Positions 10,305 to 38,379 of a stretch of DNA of 38,379 bases are shown piece after piece. The position numbers and the translations under genes are program-made. This stretch comes from K189A clade bacterium (GTDB taxonomy: Bacteria; Pseudomonadota; Gammaproteobacteria; Pseudomonadales; Azotimanducaceae): positions 1 through 38,379 of the forward strand of contig CABZTD010000017.1 of the NCBI GenBank assembly GCA_902528515.1. Reading direction: 5' to 3'. Each line of letters opens with the position of its first letter. The first letter of the stretch is position 1. The notes beneath the pieces were generated by a model. That model saw nothing but the letters and a program-made list of their open reading frames with translations. It was not told the origin of the DNA and made no database searches.

Positions 10305-11558
10305 ATGGCGAAAGAAAAACTCCTGACCGAAGCGAACTGCAAAGCTGCTAAAGCTAATACTAAAATGTACTACCTGAACGATGGCGGCGGCCTTCGGTTA
10401 CGCGTCCAAACAAACGGTAGTCGCAACTGGCTTTTTCGCTACAAAGTAGGCGGCAAGGAGAAGACTGCGGGCCTCGGTGCCTACCCCCAAGTGTCCCTTC
10501 AAGAAGCACGCAAACGAGCACTAGCTGCCAAAGGATCGGTCTCAGAGGGCCAAGATCCTGTGGTCATGAAACGTCTGGCTAAGATGAAGCAAGTGACAGC
10601 TTCGCAACAGTCTTTCGGTTCTGTCGCTCAAGCTTGGCTTGCTCACAACCGAGACTCTTGGAGTCATCACCACTTTGAACGTAACTCAGGACTCGTGAGA
10701 CGTTACCTCTTGCCAAATCTAGGCACGCTGCCTATCGATTCCATTGAAGAGGCTTTTCTCTTTGACGTGCTGAAGAAGATCTATGACAGCGGCATCAAGG
10801 AATCAGCGAGGAGAACACGAGTGATATGCGGTCAGATCTTCGCCCATGGCAAAGCTCTGCATCTGTGCTCGATCAATCCTGCAAAGGACATGGCGGACAA
10901 TACTTATTTCAAGAAACCGCCGGTAAAACATCACTCAGCACTACCACAGGCCGATGTACCTGATCTCGTGGCGAAATTGAAAGTTAGGGGTGAAGAACAG
11001 CTGCTGGAGCTTCCAACGATCGCTGGTCTGCTCATGGCGTTGTACACGGGCCTGCGCAACACAGCGATAAGAGCAGCCCACTGGCACGAAATTGATCTGG
11101 AGAGAAGACTGTGGGTCGTCCCGAGTGAGAGGATGAAAAGCAAAACGGAACATGTTGTGCCGTTACCGCGGCAAGCGGTCGAGATCCTCGCCGAACTTCA
11201 CCAGCTTACTTACAAAGGGCCTGAGAGCTACGTGTTTGCGAGCGAGGCCAAGCAAGGTTTCCTGAGCGAGAACACCCTTCGGATGGGGCTGCACCGGCTG
11301 GGCTATAAAGTCACGGCACACGGCTTACGAAGCTTGATGACTGATGTGCTGAATGAAAACAATTTCAACTACGACTGGATTGAAAAACAACTCGATCATC
11401 AAGAACGCAATCATGTTCGAGCGGCTTACCTGAGAACCAAGTTCTTAGATCAACGAATTACGATGATGCAGTGGTACGCCGACTGGTGCCAAAGCTCGAC
11501 AAGTGAGGGTAGCGTGGACTGCTTGACTCTCGCTTTTGACCAAGCGCAAGCTCGCTGA
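10305..11558 (+). CDS. int: P4-type tyrosine recombinase/integrase
   Basis: A 417-residue site-specific recombinase. The N-terminus (LTEANCKAAKANTK, then YYLNDGGGLRLRV and GLGAYPQVSLQEARKRA) is the DUF4102 arm-binding domain of P4-like integrases. The catalytic domain shows Arg in TGLRNTAIR near 250, Lys in the RMKSKTEHVVPLP hairpin, HGLR near 339, a His in LDHQERN near 364, and Tyr in RAAYLRTK near 374, so the active site looks complete. Such enzymes insert genomic islands at tRNA 3' ends. Its gene is preceded by a tRNA-Asp-like repeat and reads into the island. Confidence 0.93.
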   Translation: MAKEKLLTEANCKAAKANTKMYYLNDGGGLRLRVQTNGSRNWLFRYKVGGKEKTAGLGAYPQVSLQEARKRALAAKGSVSEGQDPVVMKRLAKMKQVTASQQSFGSVAQAWLAHNRDSWSHHHFERNSGLVRRYLLPNLGTLPIDSIEEAFLFDVLKKIYDSGIKESARRTRVICGQIFAHGKALHLCSINPAKDMADNTYFKKPPVKHHSALPQADVPDLVAKLKVRGEEQLLELPTIAGLLMALYTGLRNTAIRAAHWHEIDLERRLWVVPSERMKSKTEHVVPLPRQAVEILAELHQLTYKGPESYVFASEAKQGFLSENTLRMGLHRLGYKVTAHGLRSLMTDVLNENNFNYDWIEKQLDHQERNHVRAAYLRTKFLDQRITMMQWYADWCQSSTSEGSVDCLTLAFDQAQAR

Positions 11559-25474: not shown

Positions 25475-26518
25475 TTATCTTGCGATACGCCAGGACGTGA
25501 CGCTTCCCTGAGAGCTAGTAGCCGCGATAGCCCGCCCGTCTGGACGCCATTTAAGCGCGCTTATTGATTCAAAAGTTAATACCGCTCCGGTCGCACCACC
25601 ATGTCCGTCCCTATTTAGCGACCAGATAGCTAAGGAGCCATCCTTCGAACCGGAGGCTAAACGCATTCCACGTGGTGCGAACGAGAGGCAAGTAATGGAC
25701 TCACTATGAAGTTCCAGCTCTCCGGGTACGGTTCCTTCTGGGCCGTCGCCATCGAAGCTCCAGACAGTAACTCGTTCGCCGCCACCGGTTGCCAGAAGAA
25801 CACCAGAATGGTCAAAGGATAGGCTGCTCGGCTTAGCTGAGTATCCCGACATCATAGCGTCCTCCGAGGTCGAACGACGCCAGAAGTGCACGGAGTTATC
25901 CTGACTGCCGCACGCCACAATTTCTCCATCTGGGCTGAGTGCCATCGATACAAGTGATCCTTGCCACTCTAGTTTTTGACTGACTGTTTTTTTTTCGATT
26001 TCGTAGAAATTCACGCTCCCGTAGCATGCTGTAGCCAGTTCTTTTTCTCCTGACCATGCGATCGCGCTAACGGTGCTTGGATGGTCTTCAGATCGCCATT
26101 TCTCGCTTCCGTGTGGATCCAGTGCTAGCGCGGTTCTTGAACAAGCTACGGCCAGCGAGGATCCTTCTGGAGACCAAGATAAATGCTCCACCCAGCTTTT
26201 GGAGACTTTGATAGTGCGAAGTTTATCACCGTCAGCGACGCTCCAAAAAACGACCTCTCCATCTTGCCCTGAGGACGCTAGGATTTTTCCGTTTGGATGC
26301 ACAGCTAATGTTAGTAGCCCGCCGCCGTGAACATCTCCTTGCTTCCAAAGGAGGCCACCACTTTTACCATCTAAACAGCTAAGTGTTGAGCTCGCATCAC
26401 CGACGAGCAATACCCCGCCGCCCGCGGCCCAGTCGCATACTAACGCGTAATCCTGCACATCCGCAGTCCAGCCATCACGCAAAACACCTTGAGGCTTTTG
26501 TGTTAGTGAACCAGGCAC
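25475..26518 (-). CDS. WD40-repeat beta-propeller protein
   Basis: A 347-residue protein made of about seven WD40-type repeats, for example LTLAVHPNGKILASSGQDGE, VSMALSPDGEIVACGSQDNS and ITCLSFAPRGMRLASGSKDG, enough for one complete propeller. There is no signal peptide, so it is cytoplasmic. The GTG start at 26518 lies inside the end of the CobW-like gene (16-base overlap), so translation is coupled. WD40 propellers are protein-interaction platforms; here it is probably a partner of the zinc GTPase, which is inference from context. Confidence 0.85.
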   Translation of the reverse strand: MPGSLTQKPQGVLRDGWTADVQDYALVCDWAAGGGVLLVGDASSTLSCLDGKSGGLLWKQGDVHGGGLLTLAVHPNGKILASSGQDGEVVFWSVADGDKLRTIKVSKSWVEHLSWSPEGSSLAVACSRTALALDPHGSEKWRSEDHPSTVSAIAWSGEKELATACYGSVNFYEIEKKTVSQKLEWQGSLVSMALSPDGEIVACGSQDNSVHFWRRSTSEDAMMSGYSAKPSSLSFDHSGVLLATGGGERVTVWSFDGDGPEGTVPGELELHSESITCLSFAPRGMRLASGSKDGSLAIWSLNRDGHGGATGAVLTFESISALKWRPDGRAIAATSSQGSVTSWRIAR

Positions 26519-27852
26519 CGATCAAATCCTGCAGTAATTGCCTCTTCATCTAAGTTCCTGCCGATAAAAACCAATTGGTTTTTGCGCGGCATCTCTCCCC
26601 ACAGTCTTTCTGGTTGTGAATCAATCAACATGTGCACGCCCTGGAAGACGAATCGCCGAGGATCATCGGCGATGCTGATGAAACCTTTTAGGCGAAATAT
26701 GTCCACTCCTTTTTCGGCCAGAAGTTGGTTTAACCAATCGTTCAGCTGCTGGATATCGACATCTCCGTCCCGCTCTATCGCAATTGAAGTCACCTCATCG
26801 TCGTGCTCGTGCTGAGCAACCCAAGTTCGTTCCGCAGACAAAGGCAGACTCTCTCCTGTCTTCGCAAAAAGTTTGATGTCAAATTCCTCAGCAGTGTGTT
26901 GAGCAAATAGACCCACAAACATAGGCTGCTCAATTTCTAGGAAAAAAGATTTTTGGCCCTCTGTTTCTAGCTGCAAATCGACGTGCTTATTCAAGGGGAC
27001 CACTTCGGTGGGTCGCAAAGGCTGAGGAGACTCGGCAAACTGCCTAACACACCATTCGGCCCCCTCGTGCAGCGATTCTTCTTCGGTCGACTGATTCGCT
27101 AGAACTACGAGAGACATATTGGGATCCGGACCCTCTTGCAAACTCAACTCATAACGGCCTGCGCTTAGCCAATAAACGCCAGTCCACTCAAACGGATATT
27201 CTGGCTCAAGGAATGTGGGCCGCTTTTCGAGCGCCTGATCAAGATCGAAAGCACTCAAATTCAACACAGTATCTACAGGGACATTCCCTCTTTCCGTCCG
27301 AAGTATCTTTGCCATACGATTCATTTCGCGAAGCCTAGATTCGAGTTGATCAAGCGACTCGTCGGAAACTAAATCAGATTTGTTTACAACTAACACATCT
27401 GCAAACGCTACTTGCTCCGAACTTTCGTCGCTCCTACCAAGTTGCTGATCGATGTGTGCGGCATCAACTAATGTGACAATTCCATCCAATGAGAATTCGT
27501 CTTTGATCTCATCGTCCATAAAGAACGTCTGGGCCACGGGACCGGGATCCGCCAGTCCCGTGGTTTCTACAAGCACATAATCGAACTTATCGCGCCGCTT
27601 CATCAAATTTCCGAGTACGCGAATTAAGTCGCCTCGAACGGTACAGCAGATACACCCGTTCGACATCTCAAAGACCTCTTCGTCAGCATTTATTACGAGC
27701 CCCTGATCGATGCCCACCTCGCCAAATTCGTTTTCAATTACAGCGATCCGTTTGCCGTGTTCTTCGGTCAGAATTCGGTTCAGCAAGGTCGTTTTTCCAG
27801 ATCCCAAAAAACCTGTGAGGATTGTTACCGGTACTTTTTCGTAACTACTCAT
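26503..27852 (-). CDS. COG0523/CobW-family GTPase, likely zinc metallochaperone
   Basis: A 449-residue G3E GTPase. P-loop GFLGSGKTT at residues 14-22, the metal-binding CXCC (NGCICCTV) near 66-72, ETTGLADP near 96, and NKSD near 157. The CobW C-terminal domain follows: DIFRLKGFISI, RFVFQGVHML, LVFIGRNLDEEAI. Between the two, about residues 215-340, the usual His-rich linker is replaced by about 110 residues of beta-rich sequence (YWLSAGRYELSLQEGPDP; FFLEIEQPMFVGLFAQH). The Zur box upstream and the ZIP neighbour point to zinc delivery under starvation. It overlaps the DUF1636 gene by eight bases. Confidence 0.92.
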   Translation of the reverse strand: MSSYEKVPVTILTGFLGSGKTTLLNRILTEEHGKRIAVIENEFGEVGIDQGLVINADEEVFEMSNGCICCTVRGDLIRVLGNLMKRRDKFDYVLVETTGLADPGPVAQTFFMDDEIKDEFSLDGIVTLVDAAHIDQQLGRSDESSEQVAFADVLVVNKSDLVSDESLDQLESRLREMNRMAKILRTERGNVPVDTVLNLSAFDLDQALEKRPTFLEPEYPFEWTGVYWLSAGRYELSLQEGPDPNMSLVVLANQSTEEESLHEGAEWCVRQFAESPQPLRPTEVVPLNKHVDLQLETEGQKSFFLEIEQPMFVGLFAQHTAEEFDIKLFAKTGESLPLSAERTWVAQHEHDDEVTSIAIERDGDVDIQQLNDWLNQLLAEKGVDIFRLKGFISIADDPRRFVFQGVHMLIDSQPERLWGEMPRKNQLVFIGRNLDEEAITAGFDRCLVH

Positions 27853-28300
27853 AAAAGATCTCCATTTTTTTTGTTAGTGGCGGTAGGCGGCCCAAAATAC
27901 TCTCCCTAAGACCAGGGGGGCGAACGCCGCGCGGCATCTCTCCGTCATCGCATTTAAGATAAATGGAAACGCACTCTAAGATAGATGCGACAGACGTGGC
28001 TGGATCTTGGTCTCCGAATAAATAAGTCCACGTCTCGCCGGATGTCAGTGCTACACCACAGGGCCTGGGACAAAGGCTTAAACACTTAGCAGCCTCCACA
28101 TTCACCGAATCTTGAAGATCTGATCCTTCCAAAGCTTCCAAAATCTTGTGATATAAAAGGAAGCCTGGGCGATCTTCCTTAGGTTCCCTTGGAAAACCAG
28201 TTGGTCTGCATGAGGTGCAGACGAAAAGCGTGCATTTTCCGCTAGGGCTACTGGACCCGATTTCTTCTGATTCAGTGTTCATTGTTTCTATGTATTTCAT
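27845..28300 (-). CDS. DUF1636 protein, ferredoxin-like cysteine pattern
   Basis: A 151-residue protein with FVCTSCRPTG near residue 27 and KCLSLCPRPCGVAL near 90-105, then TWTYLFGDQDP: the DUF1636 layout, a thioredoxin-like fold with four conserved Cys suited to a 2Fe-2S cluster or a metal ion. The family often lies beside cobW-type genes; its biochemical role is not established. An alternative start is the second Met (MNTESEE). It overlaps the GTPase gene and follows the ZIP gene after 86 bases. Confidence 0.82.
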   Translation of the reverse strand: MKYIETMNTESEEIGSSSPSGKCTLFVCTSCRPTGFPREPKEDRPGFLLYHKILEALEGSDLQDSVNVEAAKCLSLCPRPCGVALTSGETWTYLFGDQDPATSVASILECVSIYLKCDDGEMPRGVRPPGLRESILGRLPPLTKKMEIFYE

Positions 28301-28386
28301 TTTTATCAGAACAAAAGCCGAGGACTTGCTAAAACGTTCCTAGACGGAAAATCCAGCTGAGGCCGCAACCGTGTAATCTTCGAGTG

Positions 28387-29169
28387 TCAAAGGAAGTTCG
28401 CGCTTTCCCACCATAGGATTGCCTGCATCGACAAAATTCCGATCGTGATCGATGCAAACTGCACGGGAATGGAGGCTTTCAACTTTTCGCTTCGTAGAAG
28501 CGGGACCAGATCGCTTGTGGCGATGTATATAAAGCCACCCGCGGTGAATGCCAACATCGCACTGAGATTTAGTTCCATAAGCTGGGAAAAAAGGATTGTG
28601 ATAAGCGCCCCGGCAATACAGGCGGTTGCACAAAAGAAATTAAGAAGGACAGCCGTGCGACGACTAAATCCACCCTGAATTAAGACTGCGATATCTGAGA
28701 TTTCCTGAGGAATCTCATGCAAGACAATCGCAATCGTAGTGGCAATGCCCAAAGCGGGGTCCGCTAGGAAGCTCGAAGCGATCAAAACGCCATCAACAAA
28801 ATTGTGGGCTCCATCGCCGAAAAGGTTCATCTTAGCGAAAGATGCTATCTCCCCTTGGTTTTCGCGAGCGGTTGTGATGGCATGATCGTGCCTCCATTGG
28901 AGGCAACTCTCTAGGAAAACGAAGCTTATAACCCCTATCAGTACCCAGAGTGCGACCTTCGATTCCGAACTTTGTGCCATCTCCATGGCATCAGGAATGA
29001 GGTGCAGAAAAGCGTCCCCGAGCAAAACTCCCACAGCGACGGCTATGAGCAACGGCATCCATCTTTTTAGTCGGCTCTCACTAACATAAAAGACCAATGC
29101 GCCGATCAAAGAGACGAGAACCACTGCGGCAGAGCCCAAAAATATTGGCAAAGTTATCGATGCATCCAT
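28387..29169 (-). CDS. ZIP family metal transporter
   Basis: A 260-residue inner-membrane permease with about eight helices. The signature metal-binding helices are present: DGAHNFVDGVLIASS near 123-137 (helix IV) and VLHEIPQEISDIAVL near 149-163 (helix V). ZIP proteins import Zn(II), sometimes Fe, Mn or Co, into the cytoplasm. It is the first gene after the Zur box, whose edge is 20 bases upstream of the ATG, so high-affinity zinc uptake in starvation is the best reading. Confidence 0.93.
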   Translation of the reverse strand: MDASITLPIFLGSAAVVLVSLIGALVFYVSESRLKRWMPLLIAVAVGVLLGDAFLHLIPDAMEMAQSSESKVALWVLIGVISFVFLESCLQWRHDHAITTARENQGEIASFAKMNLFGDGAHNFVDGVLIASSFLADPALGIATTIAIVLHEIPQEISDIAVLIQGGFSRRTAVLLNFFCATACIAGALITILFSQLMELNLSAMLAFTAGGFIYIATSDLVPLLRSEKLKASIPVQFASITIGILSMQAILWWESANFL

Positions 29170-33087: not shown

Positions 33088-34047
<960 letters not shown>

Positions 34048-34055
34048 TCCAAAGT

Positions 34056-35576
34056 CTAGGCCTGCACCAAGGGTATTCGCTCGGCGATCTTAGCCGACCA
34101 GATTTTCGGCCCCTCGATGTGGACGGATTCACCGTTGGCATCAACGCTAACCGTCACTGGCATATCCTTCACTTCGAACTCATAGATGGCTTCCATACCA
34201 AGTTCTGGGAATGCAAGCAGGGTTGAATTGGTGATCGCCTTAGCAACCAGATATGCTGCGCCGCCAACAGCAATCATAGAAACTGCCTTATTGTCACGTA
34301 TGGCATCTATGGCAGTTTTACCTCGCTCAGCCTTGCCGATCATGCCCAGCAGACCGGTCTGCTCGAGCATAGTTCGGGTAAACTTGTCCATGCGCGTGGC
34401 GGTTGTTGGACCGGCTGGCCCGACCACTTCCTCTCGTACGGGATCTACGGGACCCACGTAGTAGATCACCCGATTGGTGAAATCCACGGGCAGCTCTTCG
34501 CCTTTGTCGATCATGTCTACCAGCTTCTTGTGTGCAGCGTCACGACCGGTCAGCATCTTGCCTGATAGCAGAAGGGTGTCACCAGACTTCCAAGACTGGG
34601 TCTTTGCTGGTGTCAGAGTATCTAGGTTGACGCGCTTAACTTCGTCGCCCAGTTCTACCTCGATGTCGGGCCACTCGGCAAGATCCGGCGGCGTAAACTG
34701 CGCAGGACCAGAACCGTCAAGAGTAAAGTGCACGTGCCGCGTAGCACTGCAGTTAGGAATAATTGCTACCGGCTTATTGGCTGCATGGGTAGGGTATTCT
34801 TTCAACTTCACGTCCAGTACCGTGGTCAAACCGCCCAACCCTTGAGCACCTATACCAAGGGCGTTGATCTTTTCAAACAGCTCCATGCGCAGTTCCTCGA
34901 CAGCATCGCGCGCACCGATTGCCTGAAGTTCGTGCATATTTAAGGGTTCCATCAGAGATTCTTTGGCCAGCAACATGGCTTTCTCTGGGGTACCACCAAT
35001 GCCAACCCCCAGAATGCCTGGTGGACACCAACCCGCACCCATGGTGGGCACCACGCTGAGAATCCAGTCCACTACCGAGTCGGACGGGTTGAGCATGGCG
35101 AACTTCGCCTTGGCCTCACTGCCGCCACCCTTGGCGGCAACTTCGATCTCCACTTTGTCACCCGCAACAATCTTAGTATGTACCACGGCAGGGGTATTAT
35201 CCTTGGTATTCGCCCGAGCACCGTTGGGTTCGGATAATACCGAACCACGCAGCACGTTATCCGGATGGGTATAACCGCGCCGCACACCCTCGTTAATCAT
35301 GTCCTCAAAGACCATGTCCGCATCCCACTGAACGTCCATGCCGACGGAAATCAGCACGTTAACTATGCCCGTATCCTGGCAAATGGGCCGCTTACCAATA
35401 GCGCACATACGCGAGTTCACCAGCACCTGAGTGAGCGCGGCCTTGGCCGCAGGCGACTCCTCGCGCTCCCACGCTCCGCGCATAGCGCGAATAAAATCCG
35501 TTGGGTGATAGTAAGAAATAAACTGCAGCGCATCGGCAATGCTCTGAATAAGATCATCTTGCTTGATAACGGTCAT
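34056..35576 (-). CDS. fumA: Fumarate hydratase, class I (iron-sulfur)
   Basis: A 506-residue class I fumarase, interconverting fumarate and malate in the TCA cycle with a 4Fe-4S cluster. Conserved parts: KRPICQDTGIVNV near 103 (first cluster Cys), GGGSEAKAKFAM, GAGWCPPGILGVGIGG near 180-196, NCSATRHVHFTLDG near 274-287, and GPTTATRMD in the C-terminal domain. The protein joins the alpha and beta domains that are separate in two-subunit types. FumA and FumB cannot be told apart from one sequence; the symbol is for the class. Confidence 0.94.
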   Translation of the reverse strand: MTVIKQDDLIQSIADALQFISYYHPTDFIRAMRGAWEREESPAAKAALTQVLVNSRMCAIGKRPICQDTGIVNVLISVGMDVQWDADMVFEDMINEGVRRGYTHPDNVLRGSVLSEPNGARANTKDNTPAVVHTKIVAGDKVEIEVAAKGGGSEAKAKFAMLNPSDSVVDWILSVVPTMGAGWCPPGILGVGIGGTPEKAMLLAKESLMEPLNMHELQAIGARDAVEELRMELFEKINALGIGAQGLGGLTTVLDVKLKEYPTHAANKPVAIIPNCSATRHVHFTLDGSGPAQFTPPDLAEWPDIEVELGDEVKRVNLDTLTPAKTQSWKSGDTLLLSGKMLTGRDAAHKKLVDMIDKGEELPVDFTNRVIYYVGPVDPVREEVVGPAGPTTATRMDKFTRTMLEQTGLLGMIGKAERGKTAIDAIRDNKAVSMIAVGGAAYLVAKAITNSTLLAFPELGMEAIYEFEVKDMPVTVSVDANGESVHIEGPKIWSAKIAERIPLVQA

Positions 35577-35616: not shown

Positions 35617-36690
35617 TTAGGCGTCGCCCAACCCAGGGATGTCGCAGTATAAGTCCAGCTCTACGCGCTGGCTAACATAGCGGTTCTGGTGGGCACCCGC
35701 GCACCAAGACGGCATGACCATAGAATACAGTCCGCTGCCTCCCGCCATCAGCAGTAGAATATCTTGCGGGCTGTGAAAGCAGCGATAGGTCTCATCCTTA
35801 ATGCGGCTGGCGAAGCCGGCGGCAAAGTAGCTCAATCGCTCGGTTGGGTATTCGGTTAATTCAAACAGTCGCTGCAAAATTGCAGCGCGATCAAGGCCTG
35901 CATCCGCAAGAATTTTTGCGTGCTCCGGGTTCAGAACGACTACTGCTCCACCGCCGGTCAGCACGGCGTTATTGGTGGCCATATTAGCCAGACCGATGGC
36001 CAGCACTTCCAACAGTTTCGCCGCATCTTGAGGGTCATCGGCATCGCCACTGTAAATGACCGAATGAGGCGCTTCTGCGCCGATTACGGTGACCACGGTC
36101 TCCTCAATGTCGTAACCCAGATCTTGATGCATGGGCGCAAAGGGCGAATGCTCTTCGTCCTCAGCCAGGCAGTAGGTGAACTTACCCGGATGGCCGAGCA
36201 AGGCCATATCAGATTCGCCAGCCTTGGCGCCACCGATATTGATCATGCAGAGACGTAGGGCGCGACCAATGCTGGCATTAGCGCGATGGCCTGGGCCAAG
36301 CGCACCAAAACCGCTGGCAATGGGGCCGCAGCTCAATCGGCCGGGGCCGTTGACGATAATCAGCGGCGCAGTGCAGTGGGTCGTTGACTGCATTTGTGCC
36401 AGGTCGAACTCGTCCTGCAAAACGGCCTGCACCGCCGCGATAACCACAGGCAAATGTTCGGTCAGGCAGCCTGCCATTACCGCTGCGATGGCAACTTTTT
36501 CTATGGTGGCTCCGCCGCCTGCAGGCCCCATGACACCTAGCTGCATGTCAGCGTCCTGACCGCTGGCCAGAACCATGCTAGCAACCCGATCTGGGGTAGG
36601 GATAACCACTGGCAGCCCGTCGGTCATACCAGCGCTATGCATGGCCTCAAGCGCAGAGCTCTCGTCATTAGCCTGCATCAGCTCAGTCAT
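35617..36690 (-). CDS. Conserved hypothetical protein coupled to the UGSC selenoprotein
   Basis: A 357-residue protein that I do not recognise by named family. It has a glycine-rich first half (VMGPAGGGATIEKVAIAAVM; IIVNGPGRLSCGPIASGFGA), conserved-looking Cys in MAGCLTEH, STTHCTAP, RLSCGP and KFTYCLAEDEEHSPF, and no signal or membrane segment. Its ATG lies within the end of the selenoprotein gene (8-base overlap), implying co-translation and probably joint function. Redox or metal chemistry involving the Cys residues is a guess. Confidence 0.75.
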   Translation of the reverse strand: MTELMQANDESSALEAMHSAGMTDGLPVVIPTPDRVASMVLASGQDADMQLGVMGPAGGGATIEKVAIAAVMAGCLTEHLPVVIAAVQAVLQDEFDLAQMQSTTHCTAPLIIVNGPGRLSCGPIASGFGALGPGHRANASIGRALRLCMINIGGAKAGESDMALLGHPGKFTYCLAEDEEHSPFAPMHQDLGYDIEETVVTVIGAEAPHSVIYSGDADDPQDAAKLLEVLAIGLANMATNNAVLTGGGAVVVLNPEHAKILADAGLDRAAILQRLFELTEYPTERLSYFAAGFASRIKDETYRCFHSPQDILLLMAGGSGLYSMVMPSWCAGAHQNRYVSQRVELDLYCDIPGLGDA

Positions 36691-37213
36691 TTTTGAGCTG
36701 CTCTACAATCAAAGGCGCTATGGCTTTGGCTACCGCGTGCAAATTCTCTTGACCGGTACCAGCCAGGGGATGCGGCAGTTTCACTCGGGGTATGAGGGGC
36801 ATGCCTAGGCTGTCGGCGGTAAAGTTACCTTGGGGCCAAAAATCCTCTGTCACTAAGGCCACCGAAGGCAGGCCTCGCTTTGCTGTACTGATGCCGTCAC
36901 GCACGGTGCCGGTAGTACAGCTGCCTCAGTGCCCGTAGGCAGCGATGACCGCATCGCATTGAGACTGGATCTCTTCAAGCATAGCGTCTGGAGCTGCGAT
37001 GGAGGCATTGCCCTTGTTCCAGACACGAACCTCGACGCCGTCGATAAGCTGCTCTAGCTCAGCGCCAACGTGTCGGAGAAAGTTCTCCGAGTCTGGAAAA
37101 CCATTGGCCAGCAAGCCAACCACAGACTTGGGGTTCGCTGCCAAGTCGATGCCGAGGGTGTAGGGGTCTGCTGGGGTCGCACGCTCGCCCAGCGGGCTGT
37201 GAAATTCAATCAT
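36683..37213 (-). CDS. UGSC-family selenoprotein with in-frame UGA
   Basis: A 176-residue protein if UGA at 36926-36928 is read as selenocysteine (residue 96). The junction then reads AAYGH-U-GSCTTGTVRDG, the defining U-G-S-C motif of a selenoprotein family known from marine metagenome surveys; Cys99 would pair with Sec96. Without readthrough the product would end at 95 residues, and the second half (RGLPSVALVTEDFWPQG on) would have no proper start. The ATG at 37213 has GGGAGGAT upstream. A strong hairpin begins four bases after UGA. Biochemical role unknown; a redox function through the Sec-x-x-Cys pair is likely. Confidence 0.88.
36882..36921 (-). promoter_or_regulatory. Candidate bacterial SECIS hairpin
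   Basis: Starting four bases after the UGA, GCTGTACT pairs perfectly with AGTACAGC, with an inner CCG/CGG stem and a 13-base apical loop that begins with G. Bacterial SECIS elements are stem-loops directly after the Sec codon with a G near the loop start for SelB. Position and form fit. Confidence 0.75.
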
Positions 37214-37304
37214 GGATCCTCCCGTTCAAAGAACACTGGAATATGGTCGCATCACAAATAAGGATTTGGTCGCACCCGTTCGCTGAGACACTAGAATAAA
37301 AAAG

Positions 37305-37450: not shown

Positions 37451-38379
37451 CTAAGCGTCTTGCACAGCGCTTCCATCGACAACGACGCCGGTGCTGAGTA
37501 ACTCCTGAATATAGGTCTCTGCAAAGTCGAAGTCGCGCAGCACCGTCAGACTGTCGGCACCAACGTCTGGCGCACGCTGGGGATGCCTCTTCGCCTCGCC
37601 CACCATATTGATCGGGCTGGCTATGGTCAGATCAAAGTCGCCTTGGCTGTCGCCGGTTTCCACCACAATACCTGCGGCGCGTAGCTGCTCATCGGCAAGC
37701 ACCTCGGTCATGGTTTGCACTTTTGAATAGGTAATGCCTTGAGCATCAAGTCGCTCGGCAGCTTGCGCGAAGGTTAGCTGGGCAAAGGCATCGATGATCA
37801 TCTGCTGCAGCACATCGCGATTGCGCATAGCCTTCCGAATGTCGGCAAAACGCTCGTCTTGCAGCCACTCAGGGTGACCTAGCGCTTCGCATAGCTGGGG
37901 GTACTCGCGCTGGGTATTGATCATGGTCAGCACAAGGTAGCTGCCGTCGCCGCAGCCATAGGCCGTGCTCAGAGGGTTTACCCAGCCGGTTTTCTGGCGG
38001 TGTTCTGCCAGATCATTGCCAGCAACAACGCCCTGCAGCGCCATACCGTTGGCCCATACGCCGTTGGCGGCCAAAGATGTGCTGACATGGCAGCCATCGC
38101 CGGTACGCTCACGCTTGTACAATCCGCTCATAATCGCACCGAACAAGGCCGTGGCCGTAGAGTGGTCGCCCATTCCCGGAGCAGGCATCAGCGGTGTCTG
38201 ATTGGGGTCACGGACGAACTCCATCATGCCCGAGCGTGCCCACCAACCAGTGACATCGAAGGCGCGTCGATCGGCCTCTGGGCCTGCATCCCCATAGCCC
38301 GTTATGTGCGCAAAAATCAGTCGCGGGTTGACGGCCCGCAGGGTGGGATAGGCCAACTGGTAGCGTTCAAGCTGGCTGG
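37451..38379 (-). CDS. CaiB/BaiF CoA-transferase family protein, 5' end outside window
   Basis: About 309 residues of a family III CoA transferase-like protein; the frame is open to the right edge, so the true start is beyond it. LERYQLAYPTLRAVNPRLIF, AHITGYGDAGPEA, GDHSTATALFGAIMSGLYKR and ITYSKVQTMTEVLADEQL are typical. At the place of the catalytic Asp of family III enzymes it has GCHVSTSLAANGVWANG: the residue aligned with Asp is Ala. This variant is a subfamily trait I have seen in other sequences, so activity may differ from true CoA transfer. It is transcribed toward the selenoprotein gene on the same strand after a 237-base gap. Confidence 0.88.
   Translation of the reverse strand, partial: SQLERYQLAYPTLRAVNPRLIFAHITGYGDAGPEADRRAFDVTGWWARSGMMEFVRDPNQTPLMPAPGMGDHSTATALFGAIMSGLYKRERTGDGCHVSTSLAANGVWANGMALQGVVAGNDLAEHRQKTGWVNPLSTAYGCGDGSYLVLTMINTQREYPQLCEALGHPEWLQDERFADIRKAMRNRDVLQQMIIDAFAQLTFAQAAERLDAQGITYSKVQTMTEVLADEQLRAAGIVVETGDSQGDFDLTIASPINMVGEAKRHPQRAPDVGADSLTVLRDFDFAETYIQELLSTGVVVDGSAVQDA

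Follow-up and report, generated by a model that had tools for sequence, protein, structure and literature searches.

A UGSC-family selenoprotein gene and its near-constant partner gene: a candidate two-protein selenoenzyme related by profile to the selenocysteine region of GrdB/PrdB

The window, by which we mean the whole stretch of 38,379 nucleotides analysed here, carries on its minus strand a predicted selenoprotein gene of the UGSC family and, sharing the last 8 nt of that gene with its own start, a second gene referred to here as the partner. The features of the locus are the following.

33100–34047, plus strand: thioredoxin reductase-like gene, a convergent neighbour, also seen at L026, L027 and L089 of the 80 loci compared
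34056–35576, minus strand: class I fumarase-like hydro-lyase gene, 40 nt downstream of the partner
35617–36690, minus strand: partner gene, 357 residues, with an invariant Cys75 in a 55-member alignment and no Pfam or NCBIfam model
36683–37213, minus strand: predicted UGSC selenoprotein gene, 176 residues, selenocysteine (Sec) at residue 96, terminal TGA
36882–36921, minus strand: 8-bp stem proposed in the initial annotation (36914–36921 with 36882–36889), its outer four pairs mostly kept
36894–36912, minus strand: putative SECIS apical hairpin CCG-CAC/GUG-CGG with a 5-nt loop at 36901–36905, recognized by frozen codons and a compensatory pair
36926–36928, minus strand: TGA read as selenocysteine (H-U-G-S-C, codon 96), from the comparison of TGA, Cys and TAG forms among relatives
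37218–37222, minus strand: GGAGG upstream of the ATG of the UGSC gene, probably its ribosome-binding site
37451–38377, minus strand: CoA-transferase family III gene, upstream at a distance of 237 nt and cut by the end of the window

Elsewhere in the window, the minus strand at 25475–29169 carries a cluster of genes for a WD40-repeat protein, CobW GTPase and ZIP transporter, apparently a block for the handling of metal (zinc), and a phage-type integrase gene lies at 10305–11558 (plus strand). An Rfam scan of the window at gathering thresholds returned two tRNAs only.

In a mechanical list of open reading frames, the first part of the UGSC gene appears as a 95-residue ORF (36926–37213) that ends at the TGA, as would be expected if this codon were an ordinary stop, leaving either a pair of small proteins or a gene in decay; the second, shorter frame is under the 80-residue limit of the list and was checked by translation only. 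The initial annotation had instead joined two minus-strand frames of one phase across a single TGA, and its coordinates and phase are right: the joined product has 176 residues and reads A-Y-G-H-U-G-S-C-T-T-G-T-V-R-D at the junction, which contains the U-G-S-C motif that it had assigned to the UGSC family. This product matches Pfam family PF24696 with 147.6 bits (cut-off 25, E = 5e-43) over residues 18–174, spanning the TGA. With the NCBIfam equivalog model NF041046 it scores 108.2 bits, under the cut-off of 125 bits, and membership of that model is not claimed.

Relatives were gathered by a contig scan with partner-gene alignment, which confirmed 550 stretches; the best 80 loci (L026–L105) were used, and 71 of these 80 have a UGSC-family frame in the flank. 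The close clade comprises 25 loci (L026–L048, L050 and L069), or 26 genes with the window. All 25 loci have TGA at the Sec codon, and in all 25 the part after the TGA continues as protein (53–85% identity), rather than ending naturally at residue 95, the outcome that the initial annotation had named as contrary to its reading. Both halves are kept, with 90.5% and 85% identity in L026 and 59% and 69% in L027. The more distant L049 has TGT at the same codon, giving H-C-G-S-C, and further Cys forms occur among the UGSC homologues. Among 109 UGSC genes the residue at the Sec site is U in 82, C in 21 and TAG-encoded in two, with four genes outside the motif pattern; these genes derive from 116 loci including the window, five of 114 matches having been dropped as fragments, and five of the 21 Cys calls (CGAV or CGAL) are doubtful pattern matches. 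The Cys at the +3 position is replaced by Ser in 3 of the 109 (UGSS in two, CGTS in one) and so is not universal. Motif variants (UGNC, UGSS, CGTS, UGGC and UGAC) occur at L056, L067, L072, L079, L080, L086, L087 and L097. One further locus, seen both as L022 and as L025 (G277:C6), shows a Cys-form UGSC (HCGSC) in two frames with an in-frame TGA elsewhere, which is either a decayed gene or an assembly error.

The TAG forms belong to Blastococcus, which is represented twice (L090 and L138). One tRNA of its genome, with a CTA anticodon, reaches 64.2 bits as tRNA-Sec; ARAGORN labels it Pyl. A TAG Sec codon and a UAG-decoding tRNA-Sec have been published for Geodermatophilaceae, with UGSC genes included in the part of that report consulted (PMC5330540); the Blastococcus loci match this system and are used here only as support.

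The source genome is a 2.13-Mb draft of 89 contigs, 75% complete, and carries the selA, selB, selC and selD genes that the initial annotation had predicted. Genes for SelB (380.9 bits) and SelA (524.3 bits) are adjacent on contig C7, both above curated cut-offs, and 3 kb beyond them lies a tRNA-Sec (73.1 bits, over the curated cut-off; anticodon TCA by ARAGORN). The selD gene on contig C16 (261.3 bits, above the curated cut-off) forms the C-terminal part of a 747-residue ORF (L008, 253–2496), in which a Pyr_redox_2 domain precedes the two AIRS domains; Ndh–SelD fusions are mentioned in the consulted part of PMC2398784. The same genome contains three PrdB-like genes with an in-frame TGA, L106 (G000:C3:83259), L114 (G000:C45:6061) and L115 (G000:C2:96632), with the U-P-x-C motifs UPIC, UPLC and UPVC, respectively, so that Sec use by this organism need not rest on the UGSC gene alone.

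Directly after the UGA, the coding sequence is constrained at the nucleotide level. In the 26 close-clade genes, whose bins are titled as Gammaproteobacteria or Actinomycetota, the latter mostly Acidimicrobiia, apart from a single Dehalococcoidia bin and a probably mislabelled Klebsiella bin, the synonymous sites of codons 102–106 (GGC ACC GTG CGT GAC) are identical wherever the residue is kept, which is the case in 25 of 26 genes for Arg105 and in 26 of 26 for the other codons. Mean pairwise codon identity is 0.74 over 11 conserved codons at 97–108, compared with 0.37 over 61 conserved codons elsewhere (Mann–Whitney P = 8e-6, uncorrected for relatedness, which acts equally on both groups). 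The apical hairpin at 36894–36912, with the sequence CCG.CAC-CGUGC-GUG.CGG, is paired in 99.3% of cells across the 26 genes, and five Acidimicrobiia sequences, four of them distinct, show a compensatory change from C-G to U-A that is probably a single event. Measured against 500 shuffles, the hairpin is higher than all of them in paired cells, in cells changed on both sides and in covariation score, and not higher in the number of pairs changed (one) or of further pair types (one).

The initial annotation had placed the SECIS in the 8-bp stem. This stem is present and starts four bases after the UGA, but as a whole SECIS it was rejected: conservation is for the most part limited to the outer four pairs, 67.5% of cells are paired in the 26 genes, and none of its covariation measures is above shuffles. 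The fold check that had been proposed for this region gave an unexceptional result for the window's own sequence (z = -0.98, with 33 of 200 shuffles equally good). Moreover, mean fold energies are -15.6 kcal/mol for 54 Sec forms and -15.8 kcal/mol for 10 Cys forms, so folding energy alone is uninformative. Because the hairpin is almost completely paired and has a compensatory pair, and the 8-bp stem is only partly kept, we take the apical hairpin, from the sequence comparison, as the conserved SECIS core, joined by no more than a portion of the 8-bp stem. A SECIS close behind the UGA and under nucleotide-level constraint, as looked for in a bacterial selenoprotein gene, was thus found. Taken together with the PF24696 match across the TGA, the Cys forms and the Sec machinery, it supports the reading of 36683–37213 as one selenoprotein gene in which the TGA would be decoded as Sec, a further member of an already known family. 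An ordinary stop or pseudogene is highly improbable, and we reject it on the Cys codons that stand for the TGA in L049 and others, the conserved second half and the frozen synonymous sites; the presence of Sec machinery in the genome also speaks against it.

The partner gene encodes a protein for which no match to Pfam or NCBIfam was found at E up to 10 with the window's member, or at E up to 0.001 with the 55 aligned members (best values 0.018 and 0.016). Comparison with PDB sequences gave no match under E = 0.08, and for the window's partner alone none at E up to 1. It shows no likeness to clusters of genes flanking GrdB, and against a four-sequence cluster tentatively read as GrdE-like it gave P = 0.62. 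Kinship with a known family was not found in these Pfam, NCBIfam, PDB-sequence and GrdB-flank comparisons. Cys75 is invariant in the 55-member alignment and lies in an M-A-G-C motif. In L021 and L023 the partner frame is prolonged at its N-terminus by a long stretch that contains R-P-G-C-G-S-K, and in L023 also C-x-x-C; no Pfam domain was named in the L023 extension.

The association of the two genes is close to constant. Among 36 loci chosen by UGSC from two phylum samples (the window's locus counted; L022 and L025, two views of one locus, entered once, as L022), the partner lies beside UGSC on the same strand, within the same 2.5–3.5-kb locus, in 34; the two others (L146 and L147) are below the Pfam cut-off and are missed by the UGSC profile. 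Of the 20 UGSC-chosen loci listed for close relatives, 19 have the partner, the exception (L222) being 2310 bases long and probably ending at a contig edge. Over all fetched loci the two orders of the genes are about equally frequent (55 and 54), and the gap between the matched stretches has a median of 69 nt, with 92 of 109 within 150 nt; these counts are not independent, as most loci were fetched by the partner. In L072 (726–2303) UGSC and partner are fused in one frame of 526 residues. The distance matrices of the two proteins correlate with r = 0.93 over 47 loci (none of 2000 permutations as high, maximum 0.28), and with r = 0.86 within the close clade (22 loci) and 0.77 among the others (25 loci); six multi-copy loci had been named for removal, of which four are in both alignments. 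Tandem paralogues, with two or three partner genes and often more UGSC genes, occur at L056, L057, L068, L080, L082 and L097. Conversely, 9 of the 80 partner loci have no UGSC match, some of them near contig ends. Five of these (L054, L070, L088, L103 and L105) are flanked by more than 4 kb on each side, so that there may be partners that function without UGSC.

Of the window's genus, 38 of 40 genomes have UGSC genes; the figures are 44 of 51 for the other genomes in its family and 3 of 55 for the others in its order (41 genomes with no match were taken as belonging to the order). A single genome can have up to five copies. In a sample of the window's phylum, 5 of 398 genomes have UGSC, the source genome included; in a sample of the phylum of Blastococcus the count is 29 of 396, of which 27 are over the cut-off. 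In a tree of 55 partner proteins, the window belongs to a group of 23 with full support, in which Pseudomonadota and Actinomycetota are intermingled with a single Chloroflexota bin, and phylum labels, which are submitters' titles, require 22 changes on the tree against a minimum of 9. The haloarchaeon Natrialba, with a Cys form, falls outside this group. The pair is also present in L048 and L067, from bins titled Klebsiella pneumoniae and Bordetella parapertussis, which look like mislabelled environmental bins. No viral contig was confirmed in one scan with patterns designed for close relatives.

Beyond the pair, the neighbours vary by lineage. The fumarase-like gene was considered as a fixed third member and rejected, being found at only L026, L027 and L030 of the 80 loci. 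Among 81 loci with the window included, and without a background control, the commonest neighbour clusters are CoA-transferase III (14), short-chain dehydrogenases (11), TctC tricarboxylate receptors (10), acyl-CoA dehydrogenases (9), luciferase-like monooxygenases (8), LysR-type regulators (8; a label from reading the sequence), SMP-30/gluconolactonase-like proteins (7), 2-hydroxyacid dehydrogenases (7), and one unnamed cluster (7), with MaoC/mesaconyl-CoA-hydratase-like proteins (6), MmgE/PrpD (5), fumarase (4) and thioredoxin reductase (4) lower in the ranking; clusters 1 and 3, which consist of antisense frames, do not enter this tally. As the counts have no background control, they give a hint of organic-acid catabolism only.

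The UGSC family was compared by hhalign with the C-terminal parts of GrdB and PrdB, which belong to the selenium-dependent reductases of glycine, sarcosine and betaine (GrdB) and of D-proline (PrdB). The GrdB/PrdB profile comprised 15 GrdB genes from the phylum of Blastococcus, translated across the TGA, and 22 PrdB-like genes, including the three of the source genome. All were found by PF07355 among the matches listed, with L164–L166 left out as N-terminal matches only; the Cys-form PrdB-like genes L108, L110, L112 and L113 run slightly past the final TGA, outside the aligned region. A profile of 62 UGSC sequences matched with a probability of 96.7% (P = 4.4e-10; P-values here are for single comparisons) over 108 columns, with the UxxC motif in register. 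The match was also obtained with GrdB alone (P = 2.4e-5), with the PrdB-like sequences alone (P = 1.5e-7) and with the motif masked (P = 1.3e-7), as well as with the UGSC close clade alone (P = 3.7e-5) and the other UGSC sequences alone (P = 7.7e-11). For comparison, GrdB and PrdB-like profiles match each other with P = 1.8e-27, reversed columns gave P = 0.022, the best of 60 column shuffles gave P = 0.029, and the best decoy among 18 unrelated neighbour-gene families and the partner gave P = 0.0044. An earlier comparison with fewer PrdB-like sequences had given 28% and P = 6e-4. PF07355 does not match the UGSC product directly, PF24696 being the only family listed at a maximum E of 10, and it is absent for the 62 members among the 25 families listed of 33 Pfam families; in L149, however, the PF07355 match itself stops just before the Sec, which makes a Pfam scan of UGSC members a weak test. 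At the level of sequence profiles, UGSC is thus a distant homologue of the Sec region of GrdB/PrdB. Neither UGSC nor GrdB/PrdB resembles a PDB chain at E up to 0.01 (the best being a designed protein at 0.013 and barbiturase at 0.027), and the PrdB-like profile reaches glutaredoxin chains at E = 1.5, which is chance level.

This kinship bears on a reading suggested in the consulted portions of the literature, that UGSC is a thioredoxin-fold thiol/selenol-disulfide oxidoreductase with a general role in redox balance or detoxification. Its U-x-x-C motif resembles CxxC, and a thioredoxin reductase-like gene lies near it in the window and in L026, L027 and L089. Against 29 thioredoxin-family sequences (L205 left out), however, UGSC gave P = 0.0098, no better than decoys, although a positive control of five divergent against 19 typical thioredoxins reached 1.6e-15; thioredoxin kinship was not detected by profile comparison and was set aside as a family assignment. 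Together with the GrdB/PrdB match and the +3 Ser in 3 of 109 UGSC genes, this makes an oxidoreductase of that kind improbable. In the 15 GrdB genes the +3 position is occupied by Gly or Ser, which, with the Ser forms of UGSC, is easier to reconcile with a nucleophile than with dithiol exchange.

We therefore favour, with a probability of about 0.7, a reading based on sequence comparison in which UGSC and its partner would together make up a selenol enzyme whose chemistry resembles that of GrdB/PrdB and whose substrate is perhaps of the organic-acid type. The two proteins would act as one enzyme, and the selenol of Sec96 would attack a substrate that is bound or activated by the partner, in the manner of GrdB/PrdB, leading to a selenium-bound intermediate or to reductive cleavage. 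Cys99, and perhaps also the invariant Cys75 of the partner, would resolve the oxidized state, with electrons supplied by thioredoxin and thioredoxin reductase. As a guess, the substrate might be a small organic acid or the corresponding CoA ester. The pair could alternatively be a non-redox isomerase, hydratase or lyase for di- or tricarboxylic acids that uses Sec as a nucleophile, a reading consistent with neighbours such as CoA-transferase III, TctC, MaoC, MmgE/PrpD and class I fumarase (counted without a background control) and with a +3 Cys that is not universal; as the nearest kin found, GrdB/PrdB, are reductases, we consider it unlikely.

In an ocean-sampling survey, UGSC accounts for 8.2% of predicted selenoprotein genes, according to the part of it consulted (PMC9402790), and a 2026 review lists UGSC, in its consulted sections, among families of largely uncharacterised function (PMC13188914). 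Ordinary gene calling splits genes of this type, and the partner has no family model by which to name it. In the open portions of the UGSC literature compared (PMC2398784, PMC13188914, PMC5330540, PMC9312934, PMC9402790, PMC7539508 and PMC5029168), neither a link to GrdB/PrdB nor a general partner gene was found, the partner not being sought there under other names. The added value of the present analysis is the unmodelled partner and the GrdB/PrdB link, which turn an orphan selenoprotein into a testable enzyme. More tentatively, and at somewhat less than even odds, the pair may represent a widespread selenoenzyme class, a compact relative of glycine and proline reductases outside amino-acid-fermenting anaerobes, present in many phyla and in up to five copies for different organic-acid-type substrates. 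If so, a selenoprotein that is among the most common in aquatic microbes would be a catabolic reductase rather than a thioredoxin-like housekeeping protein.

Within the UGSC family, the close-clade Sec forms are distinguished by the pattern H-U-G-S-C-T-[TS]-G-T-V-[RS]-D and by a SECIS apical sequence of their own. The portion of the GOS selenoproteome report consulted describes a UGSC protein fused to an 'Unknown_1' domain (PMC2398784), likewise a joining of UGSC to a conserved unknown domain, as in the L072 fusion; since L072 fuses UGSC to the partner, the partner may be Unknown_1. That report describes a fusion, whereas the present loci show a general two-gene pairing. GrdB and PrdB act in reductive amino-acid cleavage, as stated in the consulted part of the 2026 review (PMC13188914). 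Compared with UGSC, GrdB has U-G-T-[GS]-T in place of U-G-S-C-T and about 430 residues, whereas UGSC has 176 and is devoid of the GrdB N-terminal region. GrdB and PrdB have been characterised in amino-acid-fermenting anaerobes, and their pyruvoyl partner subunits are GrdE and PrdA, respectively; UGSC, unlike GrdB/PrdB, adjoins the unmodelled partner of 357 residues.
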